From NCBI GenBank assembly GCA_944323735.1, contig CALUTO010000020.1, positions 1 to 36,441 on the forward strand: DNA of 36,441 nt, written 5' to 3'. The notes beneath the pieces are model-generated. The model did no database searches. It saw only the letters and a program-made list of their open reading frames with translations, and had not been told where the DNA came from. The stretch is from Candidatus Gastranaerophilales bacterium (GTDB lineage Bacteria > Cyanobacteriota > Vampirovibrionia > Gastranaerophilales > Gastranaerophilaceae). Both the position numbers and the translations under genes were made by a program. Position 1 is the stretch's first letter. Each line of letters opens with the position of its first letter. Shown here piece by piece: positions 11,535 to 33,883 of the stretch.

Positions 11535-11541
11535 CAAAAAA

Positions 11542-11570
11542 TAGACACGCAAAGCAGGTTATAGTAATAT
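11542..11570 (+). promoter_or_regulatory. Promoter for the hydrophobic peptide mRNA
   Basis: TAGACA (11542-11547), 17-bp spacer, TAATAT (11565-11570), just after the stop of the fibre-associated gene. Predicted start near 11577. Confidence 0.6.
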
Positions 11571-11664
11571 AGTCCTGCAGGGTAAAAACAGCTCTTTTGA
11601 AAGGAAATCGACCACCAATTATATTTAGTCTTCGGGTTGGTTCCCGACTAGAAAGGGGGCTGAT

Positions 11665-11745
11665 ATGGAAAATATCAATTTAACTCTAATATTAGTGTCA
11701 TTGATTCTATTCATATTAAAAAACGGCTCTTACTCTAAAAAATAA
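11665..11745 (+). CDS. 26-residue hydrophobic peptide, type I toxin-like
   Basis: ATG at 11665 behind a very strong AAAGGGGG site. The peptide is a short polar start, one membrane-spanning stretch (LTLILVSLILFIL), then a polar basic end (KNGSYSKK). Size, single membrane segment and basic tail fit type I toxins and holin-like toxins (TxpA/BsrG, Fst, Hol-Tox). The 5' leader can form a bulged stem AGTC/GACT plus CGGG/CCCG (11627-11649). AACAGCTCT near the mRNA 5' end (11587-11595) is perfectly complementary to AGAGCTGTT downstream (11765-11773), so the mRNA can fold 5' to 3'. The last codons lie inside the antisense RNA terminator. Toxicity is inferred, not shown. Confidence 0.75.
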   Translation: MENINLTLILVSLILFILKNGSYSKK

Positions 11746-11800
11746 GAACCGTCTAGTCTTCTACAGAGCTGTTGGCTAGCTTGGCAAGCTGCCACCCTGT
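11717..11800 (-). ncRNA. Antisense RNA to the peptide mRNA (candidate antitoxin)
   Basis: A near-consensus - strand promoter at 11807-11835 predicts a start near 11800. The RNA (about 85 nt) would run towards the peptide gene. It carries a hairpin built on AGCTT/AAGCT (around 11780-11794). It ends at an intrinsic terminator: a 10-bp stem with one mismatch (11743-11752 with 11723-11732), then six T on the - strand. It is fully complementary to the 3' end of the peptide gene and the mRNA downstream of it. Convergent transcripts sharing a terminator are the layout of Fst/par-type and TxpA-type loci. Confidence 0.7.
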
Positions 11801-11806
11801 TCCTAC

Positions 11807-11835
11807 ATTATTTACTACAACCCCGGTTTTGTCAA
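11807..11835 (-). promoter_or_regulatory. Strong promoter of the antisense RNA
   Basis: On the - strand: TTGACA (11835-11830), exactly 17 bp, AATAAT (11812-11807). This is the best -35 box in the phage part of the window and no gene reads away from it other than the antisense RNA. Confidence 0.75.
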
Positions 11836-11869
11836 GTCTATGACATTCTAATTTTTTACGAGGTAACAA

Positions 11870-16036: not shown

Positions 16037-17263
16037 TTATATTGCTTCATTATCAGCAATTTGTTTTTCATCATCCGAAGAGCTGTCACCGTACGATTTG
16101 ACATTTCTTGTTGCATACATTGCTACAACAGCTATTATAATTGTACCGAGAGTTCCCGTGATGAGTGAAAAATCCTGAAGCCGTAACGTAACAAACAAGA
16201 ATAAATAAAGGAATGCCAGAATAAATGTCATTAGCGCAGAAAAGAAAACCTTTTCTTTCGCAATCACATTATACGTATAAACAGACAATATTGTTGTTAT
16301 AAGTATTGCGGCAATCAAATAGGAAACCCCGAACGGCATGAATTCCGCAATCGACAAAAGCAGTAAATAAAACATACACATCAAAAATCCGGTAAGCAGA
16401 TATTGCACAGGATGAATACGTACTTTTGCGGCGACTTCAAATATATACAGACACATAAACGCAAGGGAAATGAATAAAAATCCATGGTCTATTGCCTTTT
16501 GAGCAAGATTATGGCTGCCAAGCGATGTAAATAATTCAACACCAAATGAGGGCAAAGGAGTTGCACTATATGCCGACACAGGAACCGACCAAACTGCAGA
16601 GAAATCATTTTTTGTGATATTTTTTTCAACAGGCAAAAACTCTCCTATAAAAGACGGGTCTTTCCAATTGCCCGCAATTTTCAATTTCACTTTTTGTCCG
16701 GCAGGCTCTACAACAACAGATTCCATACCTCTGACTTTTGTTTTTATTACAAAGGGTGTTTGTTCCTTCACTAACTGGTCTGCATTTACAGACTCACCCA
16801 ATAGCTCTGTAAAATTTTTAGAATTAGATATATTTATTTGAGGATTTTCTATATATCCTCTTTTCTTGCCTGATTCATAAACAAAAGTCGGCTTAGAATC
16901 ATTAGTCAAATTTTTTACTTTAAAAGTTCCGCTTTGAACAACATCCGCAGTGAATACAGGAATTTTAAAAATACCTTTTTTTCTGATTTCTGTATTTAAT
17001 TTTATATCAACATTATAATCCTCAAGTTCTGCAGTTGTATCCTGATTCTTAAACTTAATTTCAGGAGCAGTTATTCTGAGTTTGTCAGCCCAGGCACGCT
17101 CTATTGCATCCTTGGCCTGTGCACGGTATGTATTCCTGTCAGAAATAATATCCTGAGCTGTAGAAAGAGGAATATACAACACAAGCAGACAAACAAATAC
17201 AATCCAGAATTTTTTAAATTTCTCATTTGCTTTCTTTTTGATTTTTTGTTCCTTAAACAACAT
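16037..17263 (-). CDS. creD: CreD-like inner membrane protein
   Basis: 408 residues from the ATG at 17263, chosen because CAGGT lies 5 nt upstream; an in-frame ATG at 17275 is also possible. There is one N-terminal membrane span (FWIVFVCLLVLYIPLSTAQ), then about 220 residues outside the membrane, then about six spans (FLFISLAFMCLYIF to the LGTIIIAVVAMYA span) and a short acidic tail. Soluble-domain landmarks of the CreD family are present: RNTYRAQAKDAI, PVFTADVVQSGTF, DFSAVWSVPVSAYS and SFGVELF. In E. coli creD belongs to the CreBC regulon and changes colicin tolerance, and elsewhere it responds to beta-lactams. No creBC genes are nearby. It sits between phage structural and regulatory genes, so it is either moron cargo or host DNA between two phage remnants. 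Confidence 0.8.
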   Translation of the reverse strand: MLFKEQKIKKKANEKFKKFWIVFVCLLVLYIPLSTAQDIISDRNTYRAQAKDAIERAWADKLRITAPEIKFKNQDTTAELEDYNVDIKLNTEIRKKGIFKIPVFTADVVQSGTFKVKNLTNDSKPTFVYESGKKRGYIENPQINISNSKNFTELLGESVNADQLVKEQTPFVIKTKVRGMESVVVEPAGQKVKLKIAGNWKDPSFIGEFLPVEKNITKNDFSAVWSVPVSAYSATPLPSFGVELFTSLGSHNLAQKAIDHGFLFISLAFMCLYIFEVAAKVRIHPVQYLLTGFLMCMFYLLLLSIAEFMPFGVSYLIAAILITTILSVYTYNVIAKEKVFFSALMTFILAFLYLFLFVTLRLQDFSLITGTLGTIIIAVVAMYATRNVKSYGDSSSDDEKQIADNEAI

Positions 17264-17446
17264 TTTTACCTGCATTCTTCTTATTTGATAACAAAAAATT
17301 TTTCCTGTTTCATGTCGGATGTTAAAATATTAGCATAGATTGTTTTAAAATTTTAATATGCATGTTCCGTTTTGAAAAAATTTTTTGAATGTTTTTATAA
17401 AAATAACCTAAAATTAAAAAATTGAATAGCAAAAAAAATTACTACA

Positions 17447-17455
17447 TGTTTTAAT
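17447..17455 (+). promoter_or_regulatory. Extended -10 promoter giving a leaderless start
   Basis: TG (17447-17448), one base, TTTAAT (17450-17455), then 6 nt and the ATG at 17462. The spacing is the same as for the cargo genes at 661 and 4356. No ribosome site is visible. Confidence 0.5.
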
Positions 17456-17461
17456 TAAAAT

Positions 17462-18823
17462 ATGCTAACCGTAACAGATAAAAAGTCATGTCCGTCTTTT
17501 GGCGGAATGACATCTATACTTTCAAAAAATTTTCACAAGACAGATGACATACTGGAAATCTATAAAAAAGAAAAAACCAGAACCTCCGGTATTGTAGGCA
17601 CCCTGCCTCCGGTTTGGATAAAAAAAATTCCGCTTTTAAATAACAGTAAAAAAGAAGGAATAAAAGAGATTTTTAAAGCATTCACACTCGCCGCTGTCTC
17701 AAAGCACCTGTATCCGGCATCTGCAGAGCTATCTACCGCATTTCTACCCGTAATAAACGCATTGAAAAAATGCAGAATTATAAACTCGGAAAAAGATTTT
17801 TCAGTAAAATATCTGGCAAGCGGTATAAACGGCGATGTATACAAAGTCTCTGTTAACAACGAAAATTTTGCATTCAAAAGTTTTTATTCCACACTTGAAA
17901 AAAGAGATTTTGGCGGCGATGGAAATTTTGCGGAACAGGCGGCTGCACTATTTATTAACAGAAATTTTCCAAACAAGAACTGGGCAAAATTTTATTTTGG
18001 CGACTTAACTTCAGGAACAATGTTTTCTGCTTTTTCATCGTATGAAAACCGTTTCACAGGCAAAGCAGCAAATCTGGAAGCAGCAGGAATAATTACTAAT
18101 GCTGACCATAGAGCACAATACAATGTAAAAGGCGGGAGATGCGTTGATTTCGGACAACTGGGTTATCTGGAAAGAGCAACAAAAAAAACTTACCGGTATA
18201 TATACAAAAAAGCTCTCCGGTCTGAAAAGTCAGTTCTTGAAATAGCAAAAGAGACACTTAAATGGAAAAAGTCACAATTTGCCGGAGACAGACTCCAAGG
18301 ATGTCTGATGTCGCTGGACAGGCTTGAGCCGGCTGCAAGAAAAAAAATACTAAATATAATAATGCCGGTTATGCAGACAGAAAACGCAATTTATCTCTCT
18401 AAAAATTTGTCTGTTGTTCCATCTTCAGTTCGATTAAAACTGTTCAGAACTTTATCCGGATTTAACAACCCGGAAATAGATTTAAATATTGCAGAAAATT
18501 TACTGCTTATACCAAAACCGCAAAAACCGTTTAAAGAACTTGCGGAAAAAGAAAATCCTGAAATAAACACAAAACTTGCTGAATATTTATATATACTCAC
18601 ACCAGCTGAACGTATAGAATATTTCAAAAAATTTATAAATATGAAAGATAAAAAATTGAACGAAGCTCTCGCCGGCTCGCTCGTAACACTTCCGGCAAAA
18701 GCTCAAACAGAATTTTTACATGACCTGCTTAAAGACAAAAGTATTATGAAAAAAATGTTCAAACACTCATCCTGCCTATCTGCAAAAGCAATAAATGAAC
18801 TAAATTCTAATTTTGAAACATAA
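17462..18823 (+). CDS. Protein-kinase-like protein with helical-repeat C-terminus
   Basis: 453 residues. The first 20 carry SCPSFGG, an N-terminal tag I associate with Gastranaerophilales proteins. Residues about 115-235 have kinase-fold landmarks: a glycine-rich loop ASGINGDVYKV (119-129), the beta-3 lysine in FAFKSF (Lys139), a candidate helix-C glutamate (Glu158), a catalytic-loop-like DHRAQYN (Asp215, Asn221) and VDFG (Asp229). The Asp-Asn spacing is one residue longer than in standard kinases and there is no HRD, so it is atypical; activity is uncertain. From about residue 285 on, repeated helical segments (SLDRLEPAARKKILNIIMPV and similar, with Leu/Pro spacing) suggest a HEAT-like binding domain. 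No signal peptide or membrane span. It could act on host regulators or be an exported effector. Confidence 0.65.
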   Translation: MLTVTDKKSCPSFGGMTSILSKNFHKTDDILEIYKKEKTRTSGIVGTLPPVWIKKIPLLNNSKKEGIKEIFKAFTLAAVSKHLYPASAELSTAFLPVINALKKCRIINSEKDFSVKYLASGINGDVYKVSVNNENFAFKSFYSTLEKRDFGGDGNFAEQAAALFINRNFPNKNWAKFYFGDLTSGTMFSAFSSYENRFTGKAANLEAAGIITNADHRAQYNVKGGRCVDFGQLGYLERATKKTYRYIYKKALRSEKSVLEIAKETLKWKKSQFAGDRLQGCLMSLDRLEPAARKKILNIIMPVMQTENAIYLSKNLSVVPSSVRLKLFRTLSGFNNPEIDLNIAENLLLIPKPQKPFKELAEKENPEINTKLAEYLYILTPAERIEYFKKFINMKDKKLNEALAGSLVTLPAKAQTEFLHDLLKDKSIMKKMFKHSSCLSAKAINELNSNFET

Positions 18824-18891
18824 CCTGAACAGTCATAAAAACATTAAACAGAAAAACACCTGCTCGCCGGCTAAGCAAATCAACCGGTGCG

Positions 18892-19521
18892 CTACAACCC
18901 TCTGCTCATATTTTTAATGACTCTGCCTATTACTTTTATTTCAACAAGCGTATCCGGTGTAAGAATTTCCTTCTTGTATTTTTTATTGTCCGAAATAATC
19001 TCAAGTGTGCCATCCAGCTTCAGGTTAAATCTTTTGGCTCTCCATTCATTATTAATACAAAATACATAAACACCGCTGTTACTAATATCGCAGCGTCCTG
19101 TGTCAACAAGAAGAACATCTCCGTCCTCAATTAGCGGAGACATACTGTCCCCGCAAGCAGTAAATGCCTTTACATTTTTCGGATTAGAACATCTGAGATA
19201 GTGCATTAATACATCATTACCCAGAAGTATAGGCCGCACAAGCGGCTCCTGTTCAACAAGCGTGCCCACTCCGCAGCTTGGTTTTATTCCTATGTGTTCG
19301 ATAGCTGTACACTCCTCTTTTTTACTGTTAATAAGCGAATTAAAGTCCACGCTGTAATACTCTTCTATCATTTTTAGCTTATTCGGAGCAAGCTGCGTGT
19401 TTTTCGCTGCTAATTTAGAGATATAACCTCTTGAAGTACCGGCAGCTTTAGCTATATCACTGAGTGTTATGTTTGATTTTTTGCTGTCTCTTAACAGATC
19501 CTGTATTTCTGTTATGTTCAT
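18892..19521 (-). CDS. CI/LexA-like phage repressor (S24 peptidase)
   Basis: 209 residues, ATG behind AAGGGG. Residues 1-60 are a helix-turn-helix (LSDIAKAAGTSRGYISKLAAK) for operator binding. Residues about 80-209 are a LexA/CI-type self-cleaving domain: a Cys83-Gly84 cleavage site in IKPSCGVGT, catalytic Ser126 in CGDSMSP and catalytic Lys163 in WRAKRF. Cleavage after RecA activation should lift repression during DNA damage. It faces away from the replication genes across a shared operator region, the usual lysogeny switch layout. All catalytic residues are present, so the switch looks intact. Confidence 0.92.
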   Translation of the reverse strand: MNITEIQDLLRDSKKSNITLSDIAKAAGTSRGYISKLAAKNTQLAPNKLKMIEEYYSVDFNSLINSKKEECTAIEHIGIKPSCGVGTLVEQEPLVRPILLGNDVLMHYLRCSNPKNVKAFTACGDSMSPLIEDGDVLLVDTGRCDISNSGVYVFCINNEWRAKRFNLKLDGTLEIISDNKKYKKEILTPDTLVEIKVIGRVIKNMSRGL

Positions 19522-19533
19522 ATATCCCCTTTG

Positions 19534-19562
19534 AATACATTTGCTTCCTAAATAGTTGACAA
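19534..19562 (-). promoter_or_regulatory. Repressor promoter
   Basis: On the - strand: TTGTCA (19562-19557), 17 bp, TGTATT (19539-19534). The -35 box lies inside the operator palindrome, so the repressor could control its own gene. Confidence 0.5.
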
Positions 19563-19584
19563 ATGTTTCCTATTTTGTTAACAT
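19555..19584 (+). promoter_or_regulatory. Early promoter with overlapping operator palindrome
   Basis: TTGACA (19556-19561), 17 bp, TAACAT (19579-19584) reads towards the replication genes. GTTGACAAA (19555-19563) and TTTGTTAAC (19574-19582) form a palindrome with one mismatch pair that covers both promoter boxes. A direct repeat of TTCCTA (19546 and 19567) lies in the same stretch. This is the likely main operator of the repressor. Confidence 0.65.
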
Positions 19585-19589
19585 ATGAA

Positions 19590-20032
19590 TACTATAGCAC
19601 AACAGCATGTGATACACAAGCTGAAACTGCTTACTACTATTCCCGTAAAAACAGCCTGAAGTTAAAATATCTCTTCTCTGATATTTTGAAAATATGTTAA
19701 ATAACAAAATAAGTCAATTGAGTTGAATAGTGGAGAGTATTGAATTTTACAAGCGGAAATTTTCGGGGAATATACTGGAGGAGAAAAATTTATTTAAATA
19801 GCTGTGCAGATGAGCTTTCGGACATATGTTTGCAGTCTTGCGTGCCGGTTTGCTTTGTTACATTTTTTTTACGTCAGGGCAAAACGGAAATTGTATATTG
19901 AAAATACTATATTTCTTTATGCATAAAATCTCTCTGTTATCTTATCAGACAGAAATTAATTAATAAAAAAACAGAAATGGATATGTGTTGGCTTGAAACA
20001 ATAAAACAGCCGAAATCAATCAGGAGGGTAAC
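19590..20032. other. Long leader between repressor operator and replication genes
   Basis: No gene is convincing in these 440 bp; open frames are under 25 codons and lack ribosome sites. A candidate second promoter is TTACAA, 18 bp, TATACT near 19749-19778. The segment around 19880-19960 is AT-rich and could hold a replication or secondary promoter site. The stretch may encode a regulatory RNA, but nothing shows that directly. Confidence 0.4.
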
Positions 20033-20254
20033 ATGTTAGCATTCTTAAAACAGTGTATAAATCGTAAACGGTTACAGGACGGGTGGATAGCAGCAAAAAA
20101 CCGCAAAAAAATCATAGATAAACTTGAACAGTACTATACAGACATAGCAATAAAGACAATAACTCTTTCACCAAGAAAAATGGCGTTGAGAGATTTTGAA
20201 CGGGCAAAGGCAGACGGCAGACTGGACAGATTAAACAGAATTGTAAAAAAGTAA
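20033..20254 (+). CDS. Small basic phage protein
   Basis: 73 residues, ATG behind a strong CAGGAGGG. Very basic and helical (INRKRLQDGWIAAKNRKK, then LSPRKMALRDFERAKADGRLDRLNRIVKK). It is the first gene of the early operon, so a role in replication or transcription control is possible. I do not recognise a family. Confidence 0.6.
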   Translation: MLAFLKQCINRKRLQDGWIAAKNRKKIIDKLEQYYTDIAIKTITLSPRKMALRDFERAKADGRLDRLNRIVKK

Positions 20255-20285
20255 TGACTGAAAACAAAATATTTTGCGGGGGAAC

Positions 20286-20681
20286 ATGGAATCAGAATTT
20301 ACCAGAACAAGCAGCAAAAATGTCTCTCTCGGTTATGTGAAGCTTTTCAGAAGTGTAACGACATGGGAATGGTACAAAAACCCGAATATAATGAGAGTTT
20401 TTCTCCACTGTCTGCTATGTGTAAGCTCAAAAAACTATATTAACAGGAATTTTGCAGTCACAAAAGGAAGTTTTTTCACAAGCCGCAGAAAGCTCTCAAA
20501 CGAGCTCGGGATGTCTGCTTACCTGATAGGTAAAGCACTATCGGCACTGCAAAACAGCGGAGAAATAAACTATTTAAAATTCAGAAAAGGATTAAAAATA
20601 ACGGTTTTGAACTGGGAATTTTATCAATGCCGTGCACTTACAAAACACAAAAAAGAGGAGACGGACGGGTGGCTGCTTTGA
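20286..20681 (+). CDS. Replication initiator-like winged-helix protein
   Basis: 131 residues. The ATG at 20286 follows GCGGGGGA. The N-terminus GYVKLFRSVTTWEWYKNPN, then MRVFLHCLLCVS is a signature of phage replisome-organiser proteins. A winged helix follows: VTKGSFFTSRRKLSNELGMS, then YLIGKALSALQNSGEINYL and KITVLNWEFYQ. Such proteins bind the phage origin and bring in the loader encoded next, with which it overlaps by 13 nt. The family is usually longer, with a DnaD-like C-terminal domain that is missing here. Confidence 0.7.
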   Translation: MESEFTRTSSKNVSLGYVKLFRSVTTWEWYKNPNIMRVFLHCLLCVSSKNYINRNFAVTKGSFFTSRRKLSNELGMSAYLIGKALSALQNSGEINYLKFRKGLKITVLNWEFYQCRALTKHKKEETDGWLL

Positions 20682-21436
20682 ATAAATGTCCTGTTTGCGG
20701 ATTAGAATACACGCTAAAAAAATATGATGTAAAGGGAGTTGTAAAAAGTATCTATATTCCCGAATGCAGCTGCATTGAAAAAAGGTTTCAAAAACGAATA
20801 AAAGCAAGAAAAACAAATATCAGGGACGAAGAAAAATACATATTGCCAATCAATTTTCTTCCTCCGGTGTTTTATCGCTACAATTTCGAAAATATACCTG
20901 AAACACGAACAGTAAAAGCCTGCAGGGAATTTGCAAACAATTTTCAAAAGGGGCAAAACGGAGGTTTTTCTTTCATCGGAACAAGCGGCTGCGGAAAATC
21001 AGTTTTGCTCGCCAGCATCTGTCAGGAAATAAGAAAAGCCGGATTCAGTTACCTGTTTATAAACACTGCAGAGCTGACGGACAAAATCATTTCAGGATAC
21101 GACTATTCAACCGGAGTAAAGCCGGAAAAGATTTTTGTACTTCTAAGAAATATTGATTTTGTAGTGCTGGATGATTTCGGAAGAGGCTGTCTGTCAGACA
21201 GATGCAGATATTTTTTACACAGAATAGTGGACGAACTGGACAAATACGAATGCTGCGTTTCTTTTAGCGCAGCACCGGAGATACTGGCAGCACTGAAGTC
21301 CTGCGCAAATACGGAGGGAATGCTGGACAGGCTCTTCAGGCTTTGTCCGCACAGATATATATTCAAAGGAAAGAGTTTCAGAAGATATGCTAAAAAAAAT
21401 TGTACTTACGCTATATCAGGTATTGAAGTATTTTGA
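20669..21436 (+). CDS. DnaC/IstB-like helicase loader ATPase
   Basis: 255 residues. The GTG at 20669 is chosen because GAGGAG lies 8 nt upstream; the ATG at 20627 has no ribosome site. The N-terminus has four cysteines (CPVC, then CSC and nearby) that may bind zinc. The ATPase core has Walker A GTSGCGKS (about residues 104-111), FINTAELTDKII, Walker B VVLDDFG and a sensor-like SFSAAPEIL, then DRLFRLCPHRYIFKGKSFR. In the known family it loads the replicative helicase at the phage origin. It follows the winged-helix initiator, as in many phages. Confidence 0.8.
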   Translation: MAALNKCPVCGLEYTLKKYDVKGVVKSIYIPECSCIEKRFQKRIKARKTNIRDEEKYILPINFLPPVFYRYNFENIPETRTVKACREFANNFQKGQNGGFSFIGTSGCGKSVLLASICQEIRKAGFSYLFINTAELTDKIISGYDYSTGVKPEKIFVLLRNIDFVVLDDFGRGCLSDRCRYFLHRIVDELDKYECCVSFSAAPEILAALKSCANTEGMLDRLFRLCPHRYIFKGKSFRRYAKKNCTYAISGIEVF

Positions 21437-21527
21437 GCCGTTGTTGACCGGAATAGCCGGTATTAGTGAAGAAGAACTTTACAGTGTAAGATTTCAAATC
21501 GAAAAACAGAAGAGAGGAATTTTATAA
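21387..21527 (+). CDS. Small phage protein
   Basis: 46 residues, ATG at 21387 overlapping the loader gene by 50 nt in another frame. Hydrophobic start (KKIVLTLYQVLKYFEPLLTGIAG), then a charged helix (EEELYSVRFQIEKQKRG). The ribosome site of the next gene (AGAGAGG) lies within its last codons and the next ATG follows its stop directly, which supports a real coupled gene. Function unknown. Confidence 0.45.
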   Translation: MLKKIVLTLYQVLKYFEPLLTGIAGISEEELYSVRFQIEKQKRGIL

Positions 21528-21707
21528 ATGGCTAAGAATCGTGTTATTGACACAAAAACAGCAGCCGACATGCTCGGACTAAAAGCAAATACACTTTATA
21601 AATGGGCAAAATATAAGAAAAATATTCCATACATTGATTACGGAATGTCTATCAGATTTTACGAAAAAGATATACTTGCATTTCGAGAAATGCACTACAA
21701 ACAATAA
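21528..21707 (+). CDS. HTH DNA-binding protein, excisionase-like
   Basis: 59 residues, ATG directly after the preceding stop, with AGAGAGG upstream. The whole chain is a MerR/excisionase-type winged helix: VIDTKTAADMLGLKANTLYKWAKYKKNIP, then YGMSIRFYEKDILAF, the pattern of helix_turn_helix_17 proteins. It is a candidate excisionase or early regulator. An excisionase would need an integrase, which is not in the window. Confidence 0.8.
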   Translation: MAKNRVIDTKTAADMLGLKANTLYKWAKYKKNIPYIDYGMSIRFYEKDILAFREMHYKQ

Positions 21708-21749
21708 TGCCGTATAAAAGCTAACAAAACCGGCAACAGAGAGGGAAAT

Positions 21750-22849
21750 ATGCAAAAGACAGAGCTTGAGCACATAAAAGAAAGACTAAAAAAAAATACA
21801 AAGAATCAACAGACCCTGTAGAACAGCACAGAAAAAGTATAAAAGACAGAAAAGAAATCGAACTTGAACTGGCTAAACTGTTTGGCGACGCAAACTCTAT
21901 TGAAGAAGACATTGACATGTATCTGACAATAATCAATGGGAGTGAAAAACAGATACAAGAATTTGAAGAAGAAGTAAATATTAATAAACTAAAACAGCCT
22001 GAAAGACAAAAAATCCTGCACACAAAAAATGAAATAAAATCAGCCAAATCCTGCACGTTAAAAGCAAAACTAAATATTTCCCATATAAAAAAAGAAATAA
22101 AAGAGTTCAGTAACCCTAAAAAATTATACTTAAAATACAGTGCTATAAAAGATAAATTAAAACAAATACAGGAAGATTTTATAGTTGACAAAGCAAAGAA
22201 GTGGAATACGTTACTTTACGGAAAAATTCATTCAACAGTGTTTAATATGCCTGAATCATACAATTTATTCAGCATTGGCATAGACAATGAAAATAAAAAT
22301 ATTGAATATATTAATAAAAACGGAAAATTATACAACAGTACCAAAAGTCTGGAGAATTCAGACCTATCCCAATCAATAACCAGAAGAATTACCGGAGAAT
22401 CGACCAGCTCAGACTGTGAAGTTGTGGTTTTTGGCACAGAAAGTGATATGGCAAAAAAAATTCAAAACAGTGCAGCTCTAAAAAAATTTTTATCCGAAAA
22501 TATGGAAACACTGAAAAAAAATAAATCTATACCTGATACAACTATTGAATTTACAGCACTGGATAAAGATTTATACAGTTCATTTCACGGTGCGGAAATT
22601 AAAAATATATTTGTAGATTCAGAAGAAAACCTTCATTTTAGGATTGAAGATTATTATAATTTCAATCCAAACAGAACCAGCCTGAAAGGAAGAATAGAAG
22701 AAAAATTACAAAACAACGGGTTTCTAAAGCCGTACTATATCATAACTGTATTGAAACTGCAAAAAAAATCTGGCAATCAGGGCATTAAATTTCTGTGTTT
22801 GAAAAAAGTAATAAAAAGCAGGAGCTTTTACATCATTAATTTTGAATAA
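21750..22849 (+). CDS. Unknown coiled-coil protein with a -1 frameshift in an A9 run
   Basis: ATG at 21750 behind AGAGAGGG opens a frame that stops after 23 codons. The -1 frame is open across the A9 run (21788-21796) and continues without a stop to 22849, so the intended product seems to be about 366 residues. It is joined either by slippage on the A run or after a one-base loss. Residues about 1-130 are charged coiled coil; the rest is mixed alpha/beta with FSIGIDNENKNIEYINKNG, DCEVVVFGTESDMAKK and ALDKDLYSSFHGAEIKNIFVD. An internal ATG at 21917 would give 310 residues but has no good ribosome site. Last gene before the host ssb operon. No family recognised. Confidence 0.55.
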
Positions 22850-22861
22850 CATAAAAATTTT

Positions 22862-22875
22862 ACATTACGTAATGT
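22862..22875. promoter_or_regulatory. 14-bp perfect palindrome before ssb
   Basis: ACATTACGTAATGT is a perfect palindrome between the last phage gene and the ssb promoter, followed by T-rich DNA. It may be a regulator site or a weak terminator. Confidence 0.4.
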
Positions 22876-22900
22876 TTTGTTTTTTAATATCCGCTCTGTA

Positions 22901-22929
22901 TTGGCAAACATTTTTTTTAATACTATAAT
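22901..22929 (+). promoter_or_regulatory. ssb operon promoter
   Basis: TTGGCA (22901-22906), 17 bp, TATAAT (22924-22929). The predicted start is near 22936, leaving a leader of about 37 nt with AAAGGGA before the ssb ATG. Confidence 0.8.
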
Positions 22930-22972
22930 TCAATTAGTATTTAATTATAGAAAATTTAAAAAAGGGAAATTT

Positions 22973-23302
22973 ATGATAAATTCTGTTGTGGTTGTCGGTC
23001 GTGTAGGTCAGGATCCGGATATGAAATACTTTGAATCCGGAAAAGTAAAAACGACTTTTTCAATGGCGGTAAACAGATGGGACACAAAGCAAAAAGCTGA
23101 AGTCACAGACTGGTTCAACATAGAGCTCTGGGACAAAAATGCCGAAATAGCCGGAGAATATGTAAAAAAAGGCAGATTGATTGCGATTGAAGGCAAACTT
23201 GCCACAAGCAAATGGAAAGACAACACAGGTGCAGATAGAGAAAGATTTTTCATCCGGGCTACAGGACTGCGGCTGTTATCAAAGATGTCTGAGTCAGCAT
23301 AG
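22973..23302 (+). CDS. ssb: Single-stranded DNA-binding protein
   Basis: 109 residues, ATG at 22973 with AAAGGGA upstream. One OB-fold: VVVVGRVGQDPDMKYFESGK, FSMAVNRWD, DWFNIELWDKNAEIAGEYVKKGRLIAIEGKL and FFIRATGLRLL. The order FESGK..FSMAVNR..DWFNIELW resembles cyanobacterial SSBs. Like many of those it ends soon after the OB-fold, without the acidic DDDIPF-type tail used by other bacteria to recruit repair proteins. With its own consensus promoter and a metabolic gene 9 nt downstream, it is judged a host gene, so it marks the right border of the phage DNA. Confidence 0.88.
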   Translation: MINSVVVVGRVGQDPDMKYFESGKVKTTFSMAVNRWDTKQKAEVTDWFNIELWDKNAEIAGEYVKKGRLIAIEGKLATSKWKDNTGADRERFFIRATGLRLLSKMSESA

Positions 23303-23311
23303 GGGTTTTTG

Positions 23312-24622
23312 ATGTTAACATCCAATAACATAGGAATAGTAGCAGATGACTTAACAGGTGCAAATGATACAGCCCTGCAGTTTCATATACGTGGCGCAAA
23401 TACGCAAATTCTTCTGAATCCCGAAATTTTACCGGAAAATAGATTAAGCACACAGGTCTGGGCAATGCCTACAGAAACCAGAAATCTTCCGCCTTCAGAA
23501 GCTTATGAGCGTGTAAAGTCCACAGTTGAACTGTTAAAAGACAAACTTGGCATAGAATTTTTCTACAAAAAAATAGACTCAACACTTCGTGGAAATATTG
23601 CAGCAGAAACCCTTGCGATGCTGGAAGTACTGGACTGGGACGCAGCAGTTCTTCTCCCTGCCTTTCCACAGGAGGGACGCATTACAGTAGGCGGATATCA
23701 TATGCTTAAAGGCGTTCTTATTGAACGAACAGAACATGCACGTGACCCGCAGTCTCCTATTTACGAATCACACATTCCGACGCTGCTGAAAAAGCAACTT
23801 CCTGAAGAGCATTCTGATTTGATAGGTCAAATTGAAATGACTACAGTGATAAAAGGAGCCGGTCCCGTATTGCAAAAGCTCAATTCACTGATAAGCGAAG
23901 GCAAAAAGCTTATTGTTGCAGATGCTATGACCACAACCGATATAGAGCAGATTGTTCTGGCAATGGAAAAAAGTTCTTACAAAATTTTACCCTGCGGCTC
24001 TGCCGGATGCGCACAGGTGCTCGGAAATATCTGGCTGCCTGAAATGTCAAACCAGCACGACTTTAAAACTATTCAGGCAATGCCTAAATTTATAGTCTCA
24101 GGAAGTGCAACAAAACTCACAGCACAACAGCTGCAAAAACTTGAAGATGATGAAGAATTTGAAAACACATATTTTATATCGCTGACTCTTGAAAATATAA
24201 TGCAGAAAATACCCGATGAACTTGTTGATAGAATTTGTGCAAATTTAATCAAAAAAAATGTTGTTGTGGTTCATACATCCAATATTGTCGCAGACGAACA
24301 GGAGCTGTGCTCTGTTTTATTTGAAAGGGAAATGTCCAAAACGGATCTCGCCGAAAAAATTTGCAACTACCTTGCTGAATTGACAAAACAGGTATTTGCA
24401 AGAAAAGAAGCTGTTCTTATTTCTATAGGTGGAGAAACTTCTTACAAATGCTGTAAAGCAATAGAAACGAACAGTCTTCAGGTTATAGATTCCGTTCAGC
24501 CCGCAATTCCTCTTTGTCTGGATACAAAAGCACAGTGGATTGTGACAAAATCCGGCAACCTTGGTTCTGTAAATGTTTTAATAGACATTTTGAAATACTT
24601 TGAACAACATGAACAAGAATAA
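23312..24622 (+). CDS. Four-carbon acid sugar kinase family protein (DUF1537)
   Basis: 436 residues, ATG at 23312 with AGGGG upstream, only 9 nt after ssb. The N-terminal domain starts IGIVADDLTGANDTALQF with the DDLTGA signature, and has FYKKIDSTLRGNIAAE and VLLPAFPQEGR. The C-terminal domain has FIVSGSATKLTAQQL, ISIGGETSYKCCKAI (nucleotide-binding GGET) and the end WIVTKSGNLGS. Characterised members phosphorylate D-erythronate, D-threonate and related four-carbon acids. The next gene is a PdxA-family dehydrogenase, the partner that oxidises such phosphates, so the two may form a short catabolic route or feed vitamin B6 synthesis. Confidence 0.88.
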   Translation: MLTSNNIGIVADDLTGANDTALQFHIRGANTQILLNPEILPENRLSTQVWAMPTETRNLPPSEAYERVKSTVELLKDKLGIEFFYKKIDSTLRGNIAAETLAMLEVLDWDAAVLLPAFPQEGRITVGGYHMLKGVLIERTEHARDPQSPIYESHIPTLLKKQLPEEHSDLIGQIEMTTVIKGAGPVLQKLNSLISEGKKLIVADAMTTTDIEQIVLAMEKSSYKILPCGSAGCAQVLGNIWLPEMSNQHDFKTIQAMPKFIVSGSATKLTAQQLQKLEDDEEFENTYFISLTLENIMQKIPDELVDRICANLIKKNVVVVHTSNIVADEQELCSVLFEREMSKTDLAEKICNYLAELTKQVFARKEAVLISIGGETSYKCCKAIETNSLQVIDSVQPAIPLCLDTKAQWIVTKSGNLGSVNVLIDILKYFEQHEQE

Positions 24623-25571
24623 AATAGTTATAACAACAGGCGACTATAACGGAATAGGCGTGGAAATAATCATAAAAGCCCTGCAAAATCTGCATGACAT
24701 ACACCCATTTATATCCGTCATCGGGAATAAAAAAATATTTGAAATATTTCAACAGAAACACGGACTTAAGCTACCTGATACTATAGAAGTTTTAGATATC
24801 CCGTTCGATGTAAACGACTACAGACCCGGAAAAGAATCTGCCGCAGCAGGAGAGTTTTCTTTCAGGTGTCTTGAACATGCCTGTAAACTTGCGAAAAAAT
24901 CAGAACTAAAAGCCATTGTCACAGCACCTGTCTCAAAAAATGCACTGCACCTTGCAGGGCATAATTTTTCAGGTCAAACAGAAGTACTGGAAAAATTTTT
25001 GGCTCACGACGGGCAGAAAGCAGAGATGCTTTTTTGTGCAAATAATTTCAGAGTTCTGCTTTTAACCAGACATGTACCGGTTTCTGAAGTAAAAATAGAT
25101 AAAGAACTCATTGTTAAAAAGGTGCTGCGTTTACAAGTAGCAATGAAAAATAACTTCAAGATAGAAGAGCCATCATTTGCAATTTGTGCACTCAATCCGC
25201 ATGCCGGAGAAAACGGAGTGATTGGAACAGAAGAAATCAGGGAATTTCAGCCTGCAATTAGAGAACTCAGAAGCTCTGGATTAAAAATAAATGGCCCGTT
25301 CCCTGCAGATACCCTTTTTGCCGGTGCAGCCTATGATTTCAAATCCGGAATACAAAGCTACGATTGTTATATAGCCTGCTACCACGATCAGGGGCTGATT
25401 CCCATAAAGACCCTCGCTATGGACGAATGCGTAAATACAACAATCGGACTAGATATACTAAGGACATCACCTGCTCACGGTACAGCTTACGACATAGCCG
25501 GATTTTGCTGCGCAAGGCCGGACAGCATGGAGGCGGCTATAACGGCAGCAATAAAACAAAACTATAGCTAG
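24609..25571 (+). CDS. pdxA: PdxA-family 4-phosphate dehydrogenase
   Basis: 320 residues. The ATG at 24609 overlaps the kinase gene by 14 nt; no ribosome site is clear, so translation is likely coupled. Family landmarks in order: TTGDYNGIGVEI, VTAPVSKNAL, LTRHVPVSEV, LNPHAGENG, PADTLF and CYHDQGLIPIKTL. The three histidines of the last motifs are the metal ligands. The substrate motif usually read as GHTE is SGQTE here. PdxA acts on 4-phosphohydroxy-L-threonine in pyridoxal phosphate synthesis, while PdxA2 acts on 4-phospho-D-threonate or erythronate. The adjacent DUF1537 kinase favours PdxA2, but this may be the only PdxA of the genome. Its stop overlaps the stop of the opposing gene (CTAG). 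Confidence 0.85.
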   Translation: MNKNKIVITTGDYNGIGVEIIIKALQNLHDIHPFISVIGNKKIFEIFQQKHGLKLPDTIEVLDIPFDVNDYRPGKESAAAGEFSFRCLEHACKLAKKSELKAIVTAPVSKNALHLAGHNFSGQTEVLEKFLAHDGQKAEMLFCANNFRVLLLTRHVPVSEVKIDKELIVKKVLRLQVAMKNNFKIEEPSFAICALNPHAGENGVIGTEEIREFQPAIRELRSSGLKINGPFPADTLFAGAAYDFKSGIQSYDCYIACYHDQGLIPIKTLAMDECVNTTIGLDILRTSPAHGTAYDIAGFCCARPDSMEAAITAAIKQNYS

Positions 25572-25750
25572 GCTATGTAATTATTGCCTATCCAGCCGGC
25601 ACCGAGGAAAAAACATTCCTCAAGCATTTTGTCCAGAGAGCGATATACTTTTCTTCTGGGTTTTTGCTGCGCTTTTTTTATAGCAGTGCTGGTCTCGCCG
25701 TACTGTGCAGCTATTGATAATGTATAATTTGCAAACGGGTTTGTTGACAT
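25568..25750 (-). CDS. Hypothetical 60-residue protein
   Basis: ATG at 25750 with GAG 8 nt upstream. Mostly polar, with TSTAIKKAQQKPRRKVYRSL and a hydrophobic end (CFFLGAGWIGNNYIA). It ends tail-to-tail with pdxA, sharing CTAG. It is in the same direction as the coiled-coil gene 70 nt upstream and probably co-transcribed with it. No family recognised. Confidence 0.5.
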   Translation of the reverse strand: MSTNPFANYTLSIAAQYGETSTAIKKAQQKPRRKVYRSLDKMLEECFFLGAGWIGNNYIA

Positions 25751-25820
25751 TGTATCACTCTTTTCTATTTAGTCTGTTGTTTTGCCTTTGATTAAACTTT
25801 AATTGTTCTTAATATGATTA

Positions 25821-26201
25821 TTAGTTAGCGTATTCAAATCCTTCTTTGATATTATTTTCTGTCAATTTTTCCCAGCCTTCGAGCTGTGTGGAAAGCATTT
25901 TTTGTTTTGTTTCAGCCTGCTGTTTTTCAACAGTCAAAGCCTGTTCTTTTACCTGTATATCAGCAAGCTGTGCTTTGTATTTTGTAAGAAAAGCTTCACT
26001 GTTAACGTACTCAATGGCAGCAACAGGATCATCGTCCTGATTTATATATCTTTGTGCTTCAACCTGCTGTTTGGTAACTATATCCTGACTTTTTCTGGAA
26101 AGGTTCATCAGCTCATTTGTCAATCTCATTATTCTGGATTCCAAATCTGCCATCTGAAGTTTACAAGTCATTGTGGTTGTTTGTGAAATAGCAAAGCCCA
26201 T
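25821..26201 (-). CDS. Hypothetical coiled-coil protein
   Basis: 126 residues, ATG with AGAGG 8 nt upstream. After a short Ser/Thr start (MGFAISQTTTMTC) it is almost all helix: two heptad-rich segments, about residues 13-50 and 75-115, split by QRYINQDDDPVAAIEYVNS. It has no signal peptide or membrane span. The pattern recalls small helical secretion or flagellar accessory proteins, but that is not established. Confidence 0.65.
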   Translation of the reverse strand: MGFAISQTTTMTCKLQMADLESRIMRLTNELMNLSRKSQDIVTKQQVEAQRYINQDDDPVAAIEYVNSEAFLTKYKAQLADIQVKEQALTVEKQQAETKQKMLSTQLEGWEKLTENNIKEGFEYAN

Positions 26202-26333
26202 CTCTTTATCCTCTTTTTCTTATTTACTCTCTTATATATCCTCGTATATATATAAAGTAAAATGATATATAAAAATTGCCTTTTTGATATATACTTTGCT
26301 TAACATTTTGTAATATATTGGCTTGATTGCACT

Positions 26334-26373
26334 AAAAAAGGGGCTCTGAGAACATTCTCAGAGCCCCTTTTTT
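26334..26373. terminator. Strong bidirectional terminator
   Basis: A 40-bp perfect inverted repeat with 19-bp arms (core GGGGCTCTGAGAA) and a 2-nt centre, flanked by A6 and T6. It ends the gcvH-like transcript on the - strand and blocks read-through the other way. Confidence 0.9.
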
Positions 26374-26384
26374 ATTATCAGTAT

Positions 26385-26768
26385 TTATAAATCCACATCA
26401 TCTTTGTAATCAATATAGTCCAGCAAATCCCCTGTCTCTGAATCCGCAGTATCAGAAACAATTTTAATCAGCCAGCCGTCCTCATAAGGACTTTCATTCA
26501 GCAGCTCCGGATTTTCAATAAGCTTTTCATTCGCTTCTATAACCTTACCCGAAACAGGCATATATAATTCTGTTGCAGCCCTTACAGACTCGATTGTCGC
26601 AAAGACCTCACCTTTCACAAATTCAGTATCCGGCTCCGGCAGCTCAACAAAAACAACATCTCCAAGTTTTTCCAGACCGTAATCAGTTATTCCTATTTTA
26701 AAGCAATCATTGTCTTCCAGCAGATATTCATGACTTTTTGCGCATAATATACCCTCAGGTACAATCAT
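26385..26768 (-). CDS. gcvH: GcvH-like protein with Arg at the lipoyl-lysine position
   Basis: 127 residues, ATG at 26768 with AAGGAG upstream. It aligns with glycine cleavage H protein throughout: ITDYGLEKLGDVVFVELPE, GEVFATIES, YMPVSGKVIEANEKL, NPELLNESPYEDGWLIKI. H protein carries lipoate on the lysine of the ESVKA motif and shuttles the aminomethyl group between P, T and L proteins. Here the motif is ESVRA: the codon is AGG (Arg), read directly from the sequence. Arginine cannot be lipoylated, so the protein is unlikely to work as a normal H protein. It keeps its own promoter and terminator and all other conserved stretches, so it does not look like decay. No gcvP or gcvT lies near. Confidence 0.85.
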   Translation of the reverse strand: MIVPEGILCAKSHEYLLEDNDCFKIGITDYGLEKLGDVVFVELPEPDTEFVKGEVFATIESVRAATELYMPVSGKVIEANEKLIENPELLNESPYEDGWLIKIVSDTADSETGDLLDYIDYKDDVDL

Positions 26769-26836
26769 TTCATTCTCCTTTATTAAATTTTGCCGGGGTG
26801 TAGTTATCGGCTTGCATACCCAAACCCTATACAATA

Positions 26837-26865
26837 TTTGTAAAATATTTTGAATACATTGTCAA
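26837..26865 (-). promoter_or_regulatory. Promoter of the gcvH-like gene
   Basis: On the - strand: TTGACA (26865-26860), 17 bp, TACAAA (26842-26837). The predicted leader of about 60 nt ends in AAGGAG. Confidence 0.5.
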
Positions 26866-26886
26866 GTTAGAGATTAAACAATAATC

Positions 26887-28671
26887 CTAAACAGGTTGAG
26901 GCTCTGATGAAGCGAACTGCATTTCATACAGAAGTTTGTATTTTCCATTTGGCATATTCATTAACTCGTCATGAGTTCCTGTTTCAATAAGCTCCCCTTC
27001 ATTTATTACAGCAATCCGGTCTGCATTTTTAATCGTAGAAAGCCTGTGAGCAATAACAAAAACTGTTTTGTCCTTGATTAGGTTGTCTAGAGCTTTTTGT
27101 ACAACAGCCTCTGACTTGTTGTCCAGAGCGGAAGTAGCTTCATCCAGAATTACAATCGGGGCATTTCTCAGCATTGCACGTGCAATTGCTACACGCTGTC
27201 TTTGTCCGCCGGAAAGAGTAGTTCCTCTTTCACCTATTTCAGTGTCCAGACCATCCGGCAGATCATGCAAAAATTCATCAAGATGCGCCATTTCGACAAC
27301 TCTTTTAATATCTTCTTCCGATGCACTAAAATTTCCCATGAGAAGATTTTCTCTTATTGTACCGGAGAAGAGAAAATTGTCCTGAAAAACAACAGATATA
27401 TGATTTCTTAAAGATTCAACAGTAATATCTCTTATATCCGAACCGTCGATTTTTATAGCACCCGAAGTAACATCGTAAAATCTCGGAAGAAGATTTGCGA
27501 GTGTTGTTTTCCCACCGCCTGAATTTCCGACTATTGCCAGCGTTTCGCCCACAGCAACATCAAGATTTATATTTTTCAAAACAGGAGTGCCCTCTATGTA
27601 TTCAAAACTAACGTTTTCGAATTTTATACCGTGCTCAACTTTTGTCATCTCTACAGCATCTTTCTTGTCCACCAGCTCCGGATATATATCAAAAAGTTCA
27701 AAAGTTCTGCCCATGGCAACAAAAATAGTCTGCAGATTCGTCATAGTGTTGCCCAGTGTTTTTACCGGCTTGTAAAGCAAAAGAAGCGAGGTCACAAAAG
27801 AAAGAAGACTACCTTCTGTCATTGCACCGGAGGTAACAAGATGCGTTCCGTATGCCATAACAAGCGCAATACCGACAGAAGCAATCAAATACATTATCGG
27901 CGACATCCAGCCCGCACGTTTCACCAGCGACATGTTAACATTAAACTGTGCATTTATCTGGTCTATAAACTTTTTCTCCTGATATTCGGAAAGATTGTAT
28001 GCCGCCATTATTTTGTTGCCTGCATATGTTTCATTAAAATTTGTTGTGATATTTCCGCCAATTTTCATATTTTTATTCGAGGCGGATTTTATTCGTTTTC
28101 TGATTAGAGCAACAGGCAAAAAAGCAATCATCAGAACAATAACACCGACAAGAGCAAGTTTCCAGGAGTTATATAACATAACTCCAATCAGAGCAACCGC
28201 TCCAAAACCGGCACTCATGAATGCTTTTAAATTATCCAGTATTCCTTTTGATGCTGTATCAGGGTCGGTAAGATAACGTGTCAGGATAATACCCGAAGAA
28301 TTTTCGTCAAAAAATTTCGGATCCATATGCACGAGCTTATCAAATAGAGCAATTTTAACGGAGTTTGTGACTTTTTGACCGGTCCAGTTTGTTAAATACT
28401 CATTCAAATACCTGAGAACACCCTGGAGACCGGCAAACAAAACAATTCCGAACGGTATTAAAGCCGCAAGCAGCATGTTTTTATTTATCAACACCTCATC
28501 CATATAAGGCTTCAATGCATAAGCAACCACACCGTCAAGCAACCCCACCGGTATTGCAACAATAATACTCAATATTACCCTGCCGAGTACAGGTCTGATA
28601 AATTTAAAAATCCTGCCTGTCAAATACGCATAATTAAAAGATGTAGCAGCAGTAGTGTCTTTGAGTTTCAT
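26887..28671 (-). CDS. ABC exporter, MsbA-like
   Basis: 594 residues from the ATG at 28671, preceded by AAGGGA; a TTG at 28698 is a less likely start. Residues about 20-330 are six membrane spans (such as RVILSIIVAIPVGLL and FGAVALIGVMLYN). Residues about 350-590 are the ATPase: Walker A GNSGGGKTT, Q-loop VVFQDN, signature LSGGQRQR, Walker B IVILDEATSALD and the H-loop AHRLSTI. It is a half transporter that works as a dimer. MsbA-type exporters move lipid A precursors or other lipids or peptides. The substrate cannot be told from sequence. It lies divergent from fliO. Confidence 0.88.
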   Translation of the reverse strand: MKLKDTTAATSFNYAYLTGRIFKFIRPVLGRVILSIIVAIPVGLLDGVVAYALKPYMDEVLINKNMLLAALIPFGIVLFAGLQGVLRYLNEYLTNWTGQKVTNSVKIALFDKLVHMDPKFFDENSSGIILTRYLTDPDTASKGILDNLKAFMSAGFGAVALIGVMLYNSWKLALVGVIVLMIAFLPVALIRKRIKSASNKNMKIGGNITTNFNETYAGNKIMAAYNLSEYQEKKFIDQINAQFNVNMSLVKRAGWMSPIMYLIASVGIALVMAYGTHLVTSGAMTEGSLLSFVTSLLLLYKPVKTLGNTMTNLQTIFVAMGRTFELFDIYPELVDKKDAVEMTKVEHGIKFENVSFEYIEGTPVLKNINLDVAVGETLAIVGNSGGGKTTLANLLPRFYDVTSGAIKIDGSDIRDITVESLRNHISVVFQDNFLFSGTIRENLLMGNFSASEEDIKRVVEMAHLDEFLHDLPDGLDTEIGERGTTLSGGQRQRVAIARAMLRNAPIVILDEATSALDNKSEAVVQKALDNLIKDKTVFVIAHRLSTIKNADRIAVINEGELIETGTHDELMNMPNGKYKLLYEMQFASSEPQPV

Positions 28672-28828
28672 CTTTCCCTTATCTCCCTGAATAGTCAACT
28701 TTTATATATTAACCTAAATATTTTTATCCGGTCAATGTAATCAAAAATATTTAATATTAGTTAACTTACCTATTGTTTATATTAATATTATGGTAAAATT
28801 TAAAACAAGCAGGCAGAGGGGGACGATT

Positions 28829-29377
28829 ATGAAATATATAAACAAATTTTTTATTTTTCCGTGTTTTATTGGACTTATTGGAAATGCAGCATTTGCAGAT
28901 GTTCTGCCCGAATCAATGAAACAGGCAATGCAAACAGACTATGCAGGCATGCCCAGTCTGCTGAACCTTGTTGTATCTATGGTTGTTGTTATTGCTCTTA
29001 TTTATGCTACAGGATGGGTATATTCAAGACTCAGCCGCTCGGATAAATTCAAACTGGGACTAAAATCAGCGGGAGAAATAGAGAAAAATAAGTTTAATAT
29101 TCTTTCCTCACTGCCGCTCGGTCAGAATAAAAATCTTTATGCAGTTGAAATAAATAACAAAGTTCTTATTCTCGGAGCAACTCCGCAGAACATTACTCTT
29201 TTAAAAGAATTTGACAAAGGAGTAGAGCACAAAATACAAGATGTTATTTATGAACAGAAACAGACGCAATCCCTTATAAAAAGCGAAGCACAAGAGCAAT
29301 CTCAAAAAATTGATTTTGAAGATTTAGACAAAAATCTCAATGATATCAGCTCAATATACAAAAAATACAGAAGCTGA
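28829..29377 (+). CDS. fliO: Flagellar export protein FliO
   Basis: 182 residues. The ATG at 28829 has AGAGGGGG 7 nt upstream; an in-frame ATG at 28790 lacks one. Residues 1-20 look like a signal sequence (FFIFPCFIGLIGNAAFA). A membrane span follows (about 47-67, LVVSMVVVIALIYATGWVYSRL). Then comes the FliO/MopB domain: ILSSLPLGQNKNLYAVEINNKVLILGATPQNITLLKEF. The C-terminus is charged and helical. FliO helps assemble the FliPQR gate of the flagellar export apparatus. It stands alone here. If the assignment holds, the organism is or was flagellated. Confidence 0.75.
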   Translation: MKYINKFFIFPCFIGLIGNAAFADVLPESMKQAMQTDYAGMPSLLNLVVSMVVVIALIYATGWVYSRLSRSDKFKLGLKSAGEIEKNKFNILSSLPLGQNKNLYAVEINNKVLILGATPQNITLLKEFDKGVEHKIQDVIYEQKQTQSLIKSEAQEQSQKIDFEDLDKNLNDISSIYKKYRS

Positions 29378-29426
29378 TTTTCGAACAAAACAACCAGTGT
29401 AATCATATACAGAAACAGAGGCATCC

Positions 29427-30308: not shown

Positions 30309-30798
30309 AACTCTGAAGCTTTCCAAAGACATAAAAATTATAATTTCAGATTTTGACGGAATCTTTACGGACAACTCCATATTGATTTCAGACAGAGGAG
30401 AAACCTGTAAAAAATTAAGCTATAAAGATATTATGGGTGTGTCCGTGGCGAAAAAAAATGATATTATAGTTGCGATTGTTTCAGGTGATGTGAGCCCCTC
30501 AATAGACTTTTTAGCAAAAAGATTTTCACTAACTGACATTCATCAGGGAATAAGAGAAAAACTGCCTGTTGTCAAAAGTATTCTGGAGAAATATAATCTT
30601 AAACAGGACGAGGCGGTTTATCTGGGAGATGATATAAACGACATTGACAGCCTTAATTTTATTCAATATTCTATAATCCCGGATCATGCAAATTACAGGG
30701 TAAAAGCTGCAGAAGGTGTTCAAATTGCACAATCAAAAGCAGGTGACGGACTATTTAGAGAAGTTGTTGATAATCTGGTAGAATTAAAAAGAAATTAA
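30301..30798 (+). CDS. KdsC-like HAD phosphatase
   Basis: 165 residues, ATG inside the end of the upstream gene. It has HAD motifs: IIISDFDGIFTDN (nucleophile Asp with the DFDG pattern of the KdsC subgroup, followed by the second Asp in the FTDN segment), IVAIVSGD, a lysine in GIREKLPVVKSIL, and YLGDDINDIDSL. There is no large cap domain. Relatives release phosphate from KDO-8-P or sialic acid 9-phosphates. Coupled translation with the NeuB-like gene makes it the likely last step of the same nine-carbon sugar pathway. No cytidylyltransferase is in the window. Confidence 0.85.
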   Translation: MYKTLKLSKDIKIIISDFDGIFTDNSILISDRGETCKKLSYKDIMGVSVAKKNDIIVAIVSGDVSPSIDFLAKRFSLTDIHQGIREKLPVVKSILEKYNLKQDEAVYLGDDINDIDSLNFIQYSIIPDHANYRVKAAEGVQIAQSKAGDGLFREVVDNLVELKRN

Positions 30799-30849
30799 AA
30801 AATAAAAAAGAATCAAAACAGTAAATAGCTGATATTTATAAAAAAATAA

Positions 30850-32535: not shown

Positions 32536-32544
32536 GAGGCAATC

Positions 32545-33804: not shown

Positions 33805-33810
33805 AAATCT

Positions 33811-33861
33811 AAAAATTGTTACTTTTTGTTCACGTTAGAAAATTAAGTAGCAATTTTTTTT
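33811..33861 (+). terminator. Intrinsic terminator after lysC
   Basis: A 14-bp stem with one G-T pair (33811-33824 with 33845-33858), a 20-nt loop and T8. Confidence 0.8.
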
Positions 33862-33883
33862 ATTGACCGGTATTGAGTAGGGT

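Follow-up and report, generated by a model that had tools for sequence, protein, structure and literature searches.

Until a paper of July 2025, which also presented the first candidate from Cyanobacteria, type I toxin-antitoxin systems had been known only from Proteobacteria, Firmicutes and Tenericutes (PMC12390103). Modules of this type have been found experimentally to stabilise a C. difficile prophage (PMC7699646), and for the systems of Bacillus, replacement of one toxin by another at conserved loci is reported (PMC6562991). The locus described here spans positions 11542–11836 of a 36,441-nucleotide contig from a Candidatus Gastranaerophilales bacterium (the whole contig, C20 of a 2.06-Mb genome, is referred to as the window) and fills a gap in a prophage, with tail genes on one side and lysis genes on the other. 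In layout and likely effect it corresponds to a type I toxin-antitoxin module. Judged from the sequence and its conservation, the locus is very probably a complete module of this type, belonging to a new family and serving as a stability cassette carried by the prophage. The closest described systems are BsrG/SR4 and TxpA/RatA in plan, AapA/IsoA in the folding of the mRNA, and MsoT1/MsoA1 in phylum. The genome that contains the window carries a single copy of the module. All elements that an earlier note on this DNA had named are present where it had placed them, and the module is composed as follows:

11542–11570, plus strand: promoter of the toxin mRNA, TAGACA-17-TAATAT, weak (9/12) and loosely conserved
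11578–11583, plus strand: mRNA 5′ end CAGGGT, forming the outer long-distance helix with ACCCTG at 11794–11799 (93.6% of cells paired, 8 two-sided changes)
11587–11595, plus strand: 5′ arm of the long-distance helix, AACAGCTCT, covarying with the 3′ arm in 72 copies
11592–11598, plus strand: CU-rich anti-Shine-Dalgarno segment predicted from leader folds, overlapping the 5′ arm and the alternative partner of 11651–11658
11652–11659, plus strand: Shine-Dalgarno (SD) sequence AAAGGGGG, assigned from sequence and alignment
11665–11745, plus strand: gene of a 26-residue peptide, MENINLTLILVSLILFILKNGSYSKK, with one membrane span and a basic tail, a putative toxin with a conserved reading frame
11754–11721, minus strand: intrinsic terminator hairpin of the antisense RNA, inside the last toxin codons (98.3% of cells paired)
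11765–11773, plus strand: 3′ arm of the long-distance helix, AGAGCTGTT, covarying with the 5′ arm
11774–11793, no strand assigned: hairpin of conserved structure, common to the 3′ untranslated region (UTR) of the mRNA and the 5′ region of the antisense RNA
11715–11801, minus strand: antisense RNA of about 87 nucleotides, a putative antitoxin complementary to the 3′ codons and 3′ UTR of the toxin mRNA
11835–11807, minus strand: promoter of the antisense RNA, TTGACA-17-AATAAT (11/12)

Comparison with known type I systems

The BsrG/SR4 and TxpA/RatA systems of Bacillus are prophage-borne like the locus in the window, and SR4 also alters the structure at the ribosome-binding site; its conformational effect on bsrG resembles the switch proposed below (PMC6562991). 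The complementarity between the two RNAs extends over about 87 nucleotides here, as opposed to 100–140 bp in the Bacillus systems (PMC6562991). Unlike the members of the BsrG/TxpA group, to which no sequence relation was found, the locus encodes a peptide of only 26 residues, and its mRNA contains a covarying helix between the 5′ and 3′ ends that competes with masking of the SD sequence. Models of the TxpA/BsrG and Hol-Tox families gave no match above background, a comparison whose sensitivity is limited by the very short peptides and in which the presence of a model for each family was unchecked. The AapA/IsoA modules of Helicobacter likewise form a multi-copy family, with a long-distance interaction between the ends of the mRNA and hairpins that sequester the SD sequence (PMC6733600). 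A covarying interaction of this kind is present in the toxin mRNA described here; however, in AapA3 it masks the SD sequence directly, whereas the partner of the 3′ arm here is the anti-SD strand.

The Fst/par system of Enterococcus shares with the locus a toxin mRNA and an antisense RNA, a small membrane peptide, and an SD sequence masked by an intramolecular stem. By contrast, Fst uses the repeats DRa and DRb and has an APxxxGxxx motif (PMC8309996), whereas the arms described here form inverted repeats and the peptide lacks the motif. The membrane span of neither the window copy nor the consensus contains the proline of the P-xxx-G motif of Fst and Ldr, and the direct repeats that give the Fst/par antisense RNA complementarity to the 5′ leader of the mRNA are lacking. 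Membership of the Fst family was rejected on both the motif and the repeat layout. The earlier note had suggested a link to Hol-Tox, TxpA or Fst, for which no support was found: the comparison with Pfam and NCBIfam, which took in 22 family members, produced no match, and the proline/glycine motif of the Fst type is missing. Microcystis, the source of MsoT1/MsoA1, belongs to the same phylum in GTDB. Its antisense RNA (56/83 nucleotides) resembles the one described here in lying over the 3′ end of the coding sequence and the 3′ UTR and in forming two hairpins (PMC12390103). MsoT1 differs in having two predicted membrane helices and relatives in true Cyanobacteria, whereas the peptide described here has a single span. 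A literature search gave no relevant report joining type I systems with Melainabacteria or Gastranaerophilales; an entry in T1TAdb may exist.

Conservation of the peptide and the antisense RNA

The 335-bp stretch that contains the module matches 22 of 99 genomes of relatives, with up to seven copies per genome. The exact leader pattern retrieved 86 stretches from GTDB genomes, mostly labelled Gastranaerophilales or Melainabacteria; uninformative or other labels were taken to be early or mixed names of metagenome-assembled genomes. A profile over the loci identified 126 unique copies; the number drops to 107 for copies of nearly full length and to 78 below 92% identity, and 72 were aligned. Chance is excluded because these 72 non-redundant copies have a common layout. 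The conserved block begins at position 11577 (CAGGGTAA), the presumed 5′ end of the mRNA, and extends to the −35 element of the antisense promoter (11836), and the sequences flanking it are unrelated.

The earlier note had regarded a lack of conservation of the peptide frame and the stems in homologous loci as fatal to the proposed module; both are strongly conserved. An open reading frame of 25–29 residues, with its start codon fixed through the alignment, is kept in 71 of the 72 copies, and the start codon is invariant. The pairwise ratio of nonsynonymous to synonymous substitution rates (dN/dS) of the peptide is 0.31 (codon bootstrap 0.21–0.45), and second codon positions vary least (0.06 versus 0.20 and 0.23). 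The hydrophobic 14-mer has a mean of 2.79, and a typical peptide of the family is MDKFNISLLLIFLILYILKNGSYLNR. As in type I systems, the product encoded by the locus is a small hydrophobic peptide under selection.

The antisense promoter scores 10–11 of 12 in 101 of 104 copies, a score of 10 being reached by 2% of shuffles, and in 97 copies it is positioned exactly 8 nucleotides before the antisense 5′ motif. The RNA is predicted to fold with −34 kcal/mol (z = −4.9; the z-score of the mRNA fold is −3.5). Its structure consists of three helices, in which 94.4% of cells are paired and 99 two-sided changes occur among 48 aligned copies; these values were matched by none of 500 shuffles, and slid registers pair only 32–52% of cells. 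Two-sided changes affect 8 of the 12 pairs of the terminator hairpin. The cells of this hairpin that deviate from Watson–Crick pairing on the antisense strand are 103 G-U, one A-C and nine others. Because these wobbles would be mismatches on the mRNA strand, selection acts on the antisense RNA, and the strand-specific wobble is evidence, of a comparative kind, that the antisense RNA is made. The upper hairpin (helix 2) is without strand bias (8 GU and 17 AC) and may serve both strands. Sequence and conservation point to an antisense RNA that has its own promoter and terminator and is complementary to the toxin mRNA, as in type I systems.

Long-distance helix and alternative leader pairing

The exact complementarity of nine nucleotides between 11587–11595 and 11765–11773, which the earlier note had pointed out, is conserved as a structure and not as a sequence. 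The best duplex of a 5′ arm with its own 3′ arm scores 7.98 over the 72 copies, whereas swapped partners score 5.18 (standard deviation 0.17) and reach a maximum of 5.70 in 1000 shuffles. The resulting z-score of 16.5 is inflated by the kinship of the copies, but the count of different compensated arm types is independent of it. About ten arm sequences exist, each with its complement: GATGCTCTT, GGAACTCTT, GATATCCT, GATACCTT, AACAGCTCT, GATAGCTCT, GAACTCTCTT, GATAAGCCTT, GAAGCTCT and AGCCTGTAT. The outer helix CAGGG/CCCTG displays modest covariation by itself.

When the leader is folded alone, the CU-rich segment pairs with the SD sequence in all sampled copies (12 shown), and a separate inner stem of the leader covaries (z = 4.9). 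The pairing of the SD sequence with the anti-SD segment is very common, and its covariation is weak (z = 2.4) because both strands are conserved. In ensemble folds of the full-length mRNA, by contrast, the long-distance helix is dominant, with at least 4 bp in 58 of the 72 copies. In silico blocking of the region covered by the antisense RNA increases the SD/anti-SD pairing from 3.2 to 6.8 bp, and removal of the 3′ arm restores masking of the SD sequence to 6.67 bp, with at least 4 bp in 59 of the 72 copies. The two predicted pairings of the leader are mutually exclusive. The 5′ part of the antisense RNA resembles, and does not complement, the 5′ arm of the mRNA, and therefore competes with it for the 3′ arm. 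Since the 5′ arm can alternatively mask the ribosome-binding site, the antisense RNA may switch the mRNA between conformations.

Distribution of the family

A covariance-model search, which the earlier note had proposed, found the antisense RNA throughout one family of Gastranaerophilales. Of 382 genomes sampled from the Melainabacteria class, 111 (about 30%) contain a match to the model; they are spread over 27 of the 97 genera in this sample, and 110 of the 111 belong to that one family. The sole match outside it, from the same order (G070), is a full module with its own peptide. In a sample of 386 genomes of the phylum, which overlaps the class sample, no matches beyond these groups were listed and all listed matches belong to one order. 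The family is dispersed, multi-copy and often arranged in tandem: one locus (L056) contains five modules of the family together with one encoding a different peptide, another (L086) contains four, and one genome (G229) has an array of five. The known type I systems would be extended to gut Melainabacteria by a family that is widespread there and occurs in multiple copies; it offers more than 100 natural variants, whose covariation already yields the structure of the RNAs.

Nothing was retrieved from IMG/VR through the protein of the neighbouring gene, the leader/SD pattern or the 3′ pattern, the patterns being exact and the absence limited to those variants. Distant blastn searches of INPHARED phages and PLSDB plasmids found nothing, and no covariance model of Rfam matched the locus. 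The peptides matched no family in NCBIfam, Pfam, PHROGs or PADLOC, apart from a few matches of single members at background E-values.

Cassette exchange and solo antisense genes

A congeneric genome (G001) contains a prophage of this type whose flanks around the two promoters are 89–93% identical to those in the window, compared with about 70–74% for most of the backbone. The cassette between the promoters (L016:1305–1530, on contig C8 of G001) encodes a different peptide, MVDKIIMLLLAFSIAVIALKLNQL, and an antisense RNA of the same plan. It represents a second family, with relatives in loci L137–L147, whose peptides have 21–26 residues (for example MVDKIIMLLLAFSIAVIALKLN) and whose antisense terminator again lies within the reading frame. 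Its peptides have no good match in Pfam or NCBIfam.

The G001 cassette is followed directly by a complete antisense gene that belongs to the first family but has no toxin partner (L016:1589–1671, minus strand); the covariance model matches it with 45 bits (E 6e-10). Further toxin-less antisense copies occur in L040, L046 and L104 (L104:1246–1374); the promoter and terminator are intact in most, and the spacing between the −35 and −10 elements looks broken in L046. The exchange of cassettes together with solo antitoxins between prophages constitutes a natural experiment. One tandem array of the first family is interrupted by a third type of peptide, MDLLIYLFLDYLIQKYKKKVPDLELLELFIKS (L056:3635–4015), whose gene has an antisense promoter and terminator in convergent orientation.

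Proposed mechanism and alternatives

In the favoured interpretation, the plus-strand mRNA encodes a short peptide that would insert into the membrane, and the mRNA would be kept silent through its own folding, in which both the SD sequence and the start codon are paired. The antisense RNA, short and driven by a strong promoter, would pair with the mRNA over its final codons and 3′ UTR and disrupt the helix between the mRNA ends, so that the CU-rich 5′ arm would be released to mask the SD sequence; the duplex of the two RNAs would become exposed to RNase III. Upon loss of the prophage, the labile antisense RNA would decay first, and translation of the remaining mRNA would damage the cell membrane. 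By analogy, the module may stabilise the prophage that carries it. The favoured interpretation draws on the constrained reading frame, the antisense promoter and terminator, the long-distance helix and the effect of in silico blocking, and also on the tandem arrays, the prophage setting and the sixteen copies near genes resembling those of tail-fibre-assembly proteins. It is possible, as a more tentative proposal, that the logic is inverted: the mRNA would be translatable while the helix between its ends is formed, and silencing would occur at a distance when the antisense RNA, which has a copy of the 5′ arm at its own 5′ end, displaces that arm onto the SD sequence. In this proposal, the promoter pair would be a fixed frame for the exchange of unrelated peptide/antisense cassettes between prophages, and the solo antitoxin genes would be anti-addiction elements. 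The silencing of a distant ribosome-binding site by antisense RNAs that overlap the 3′ end becomes directly testable in this family.

Several observations weigh against the favoured interpretation. In thermodynamic folds, the SD sequence is largely paired whatever the state (unpaired 0.21 in the full-length, 0.17 in the bound and 0.14 in the trimmed form), and it is more open in the full-length form in 30 copies, with the opposite in 20; therefore, the direction of the switch is not proved. Furthermore, the plus-strand promoter named in the earlier note is present, but it is weak and the least conserved element of the module, with a mean score of 8.65 versus 7.77 for shuffles; its −10 element is TAnnAT in about half of the copies and a GAACATTG-type sequence in others. 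The same module may instead follow the classic hok/AapA logic, in which the full-length mRNA with its 5′–3′ helix is inert, trimming of the 3′ end activates it, and the hairpin between the CU-rich segment and the SD sequence is a transient hold during transcription. This alternative, which concerns only the direction of the switch, has close to an even chance of being correct. It agrees with the combination of a 5′–3′ interaction and transient SD hairpins in AapA mRNAs (PMC6733600), and with the start codon being nearly all paired in the full-length form (unpaired 0.02). However, the long-distance helix occupies the anti-SD strand and not the SD sequence, and the return of SD masking after removal of the 3′ arm indicates that trimming alone would not open the SD sequence.

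The window copy immediately precedes genes for a small membrane protein and an endolysin, a position that raises the question of whether the peptide is a holin-like or antiholin lysis protein of the phage with timing set by the antisense RNA. Sixteen copies adjoin genes resembling those of tail-fibre-assembly proteins, every one on the same strand as that gene. Nevertheless, a lysis function is improbable because most copies lie elsewhere, some of them near genes for helix-turn-helix (HTH) regulators, pilin-like proteins or response regulators; the tandem arrays, which reach five or six modules, and the location of the strongest promoter on the antisense strand also argue against it. A role as a small, non-toxic membrane regulator controlled by the antisense RNA is rather unlikely for the peptide. 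Purifying selection indicates that the peptide matters and says nothing of toxicity, but the multi-copy, dispersed and often prophage-borne occurrence of the module, its exchange at one site with a different peptide cassette, and a solo antitoxin nearby are habits of addiction modules. The dispersal and repetition of the module would also suit a mobile non-coding repeat with an incidental reading frame and promoters. This explanation is barely tenable given the dN/dS ratio, the invariant start codon and the constrained second codon positions, and it is opposed by the strand-specific wobble and the covariation of the long-distance helix.

Genomic setting

The left part of the window is a prophage with genes for a portal, major head protein, terminase large subunit and endolysin (identified with PHROGs) and an S24/HTH repressor. 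The gene upstream of the module encodes 250 residues related to tail-fibre-assembly proteins and clusters with L117:4023–4871 (phrog_105, E 2.6e-13); downstream are a 125-residue membrane-protein gene and an amidase endolysin gene. The attribution of the module to Melainabacteria phages in the earlier note is correct for the window copy, as indicated by these phage genes, but many copies are located outside a tail/lysis site. Near copies of the latter kind, a Cro/C1-type HTH gene is found, often together with a pilin-like gene (L069:6661–7044 and 14 other loci). Positions 16037–34741 of the window contain mostly chromosomal genes (CreD-like, PdxA, NeuB and aspartokinase-like), which places the prophage at the left end of the contig.
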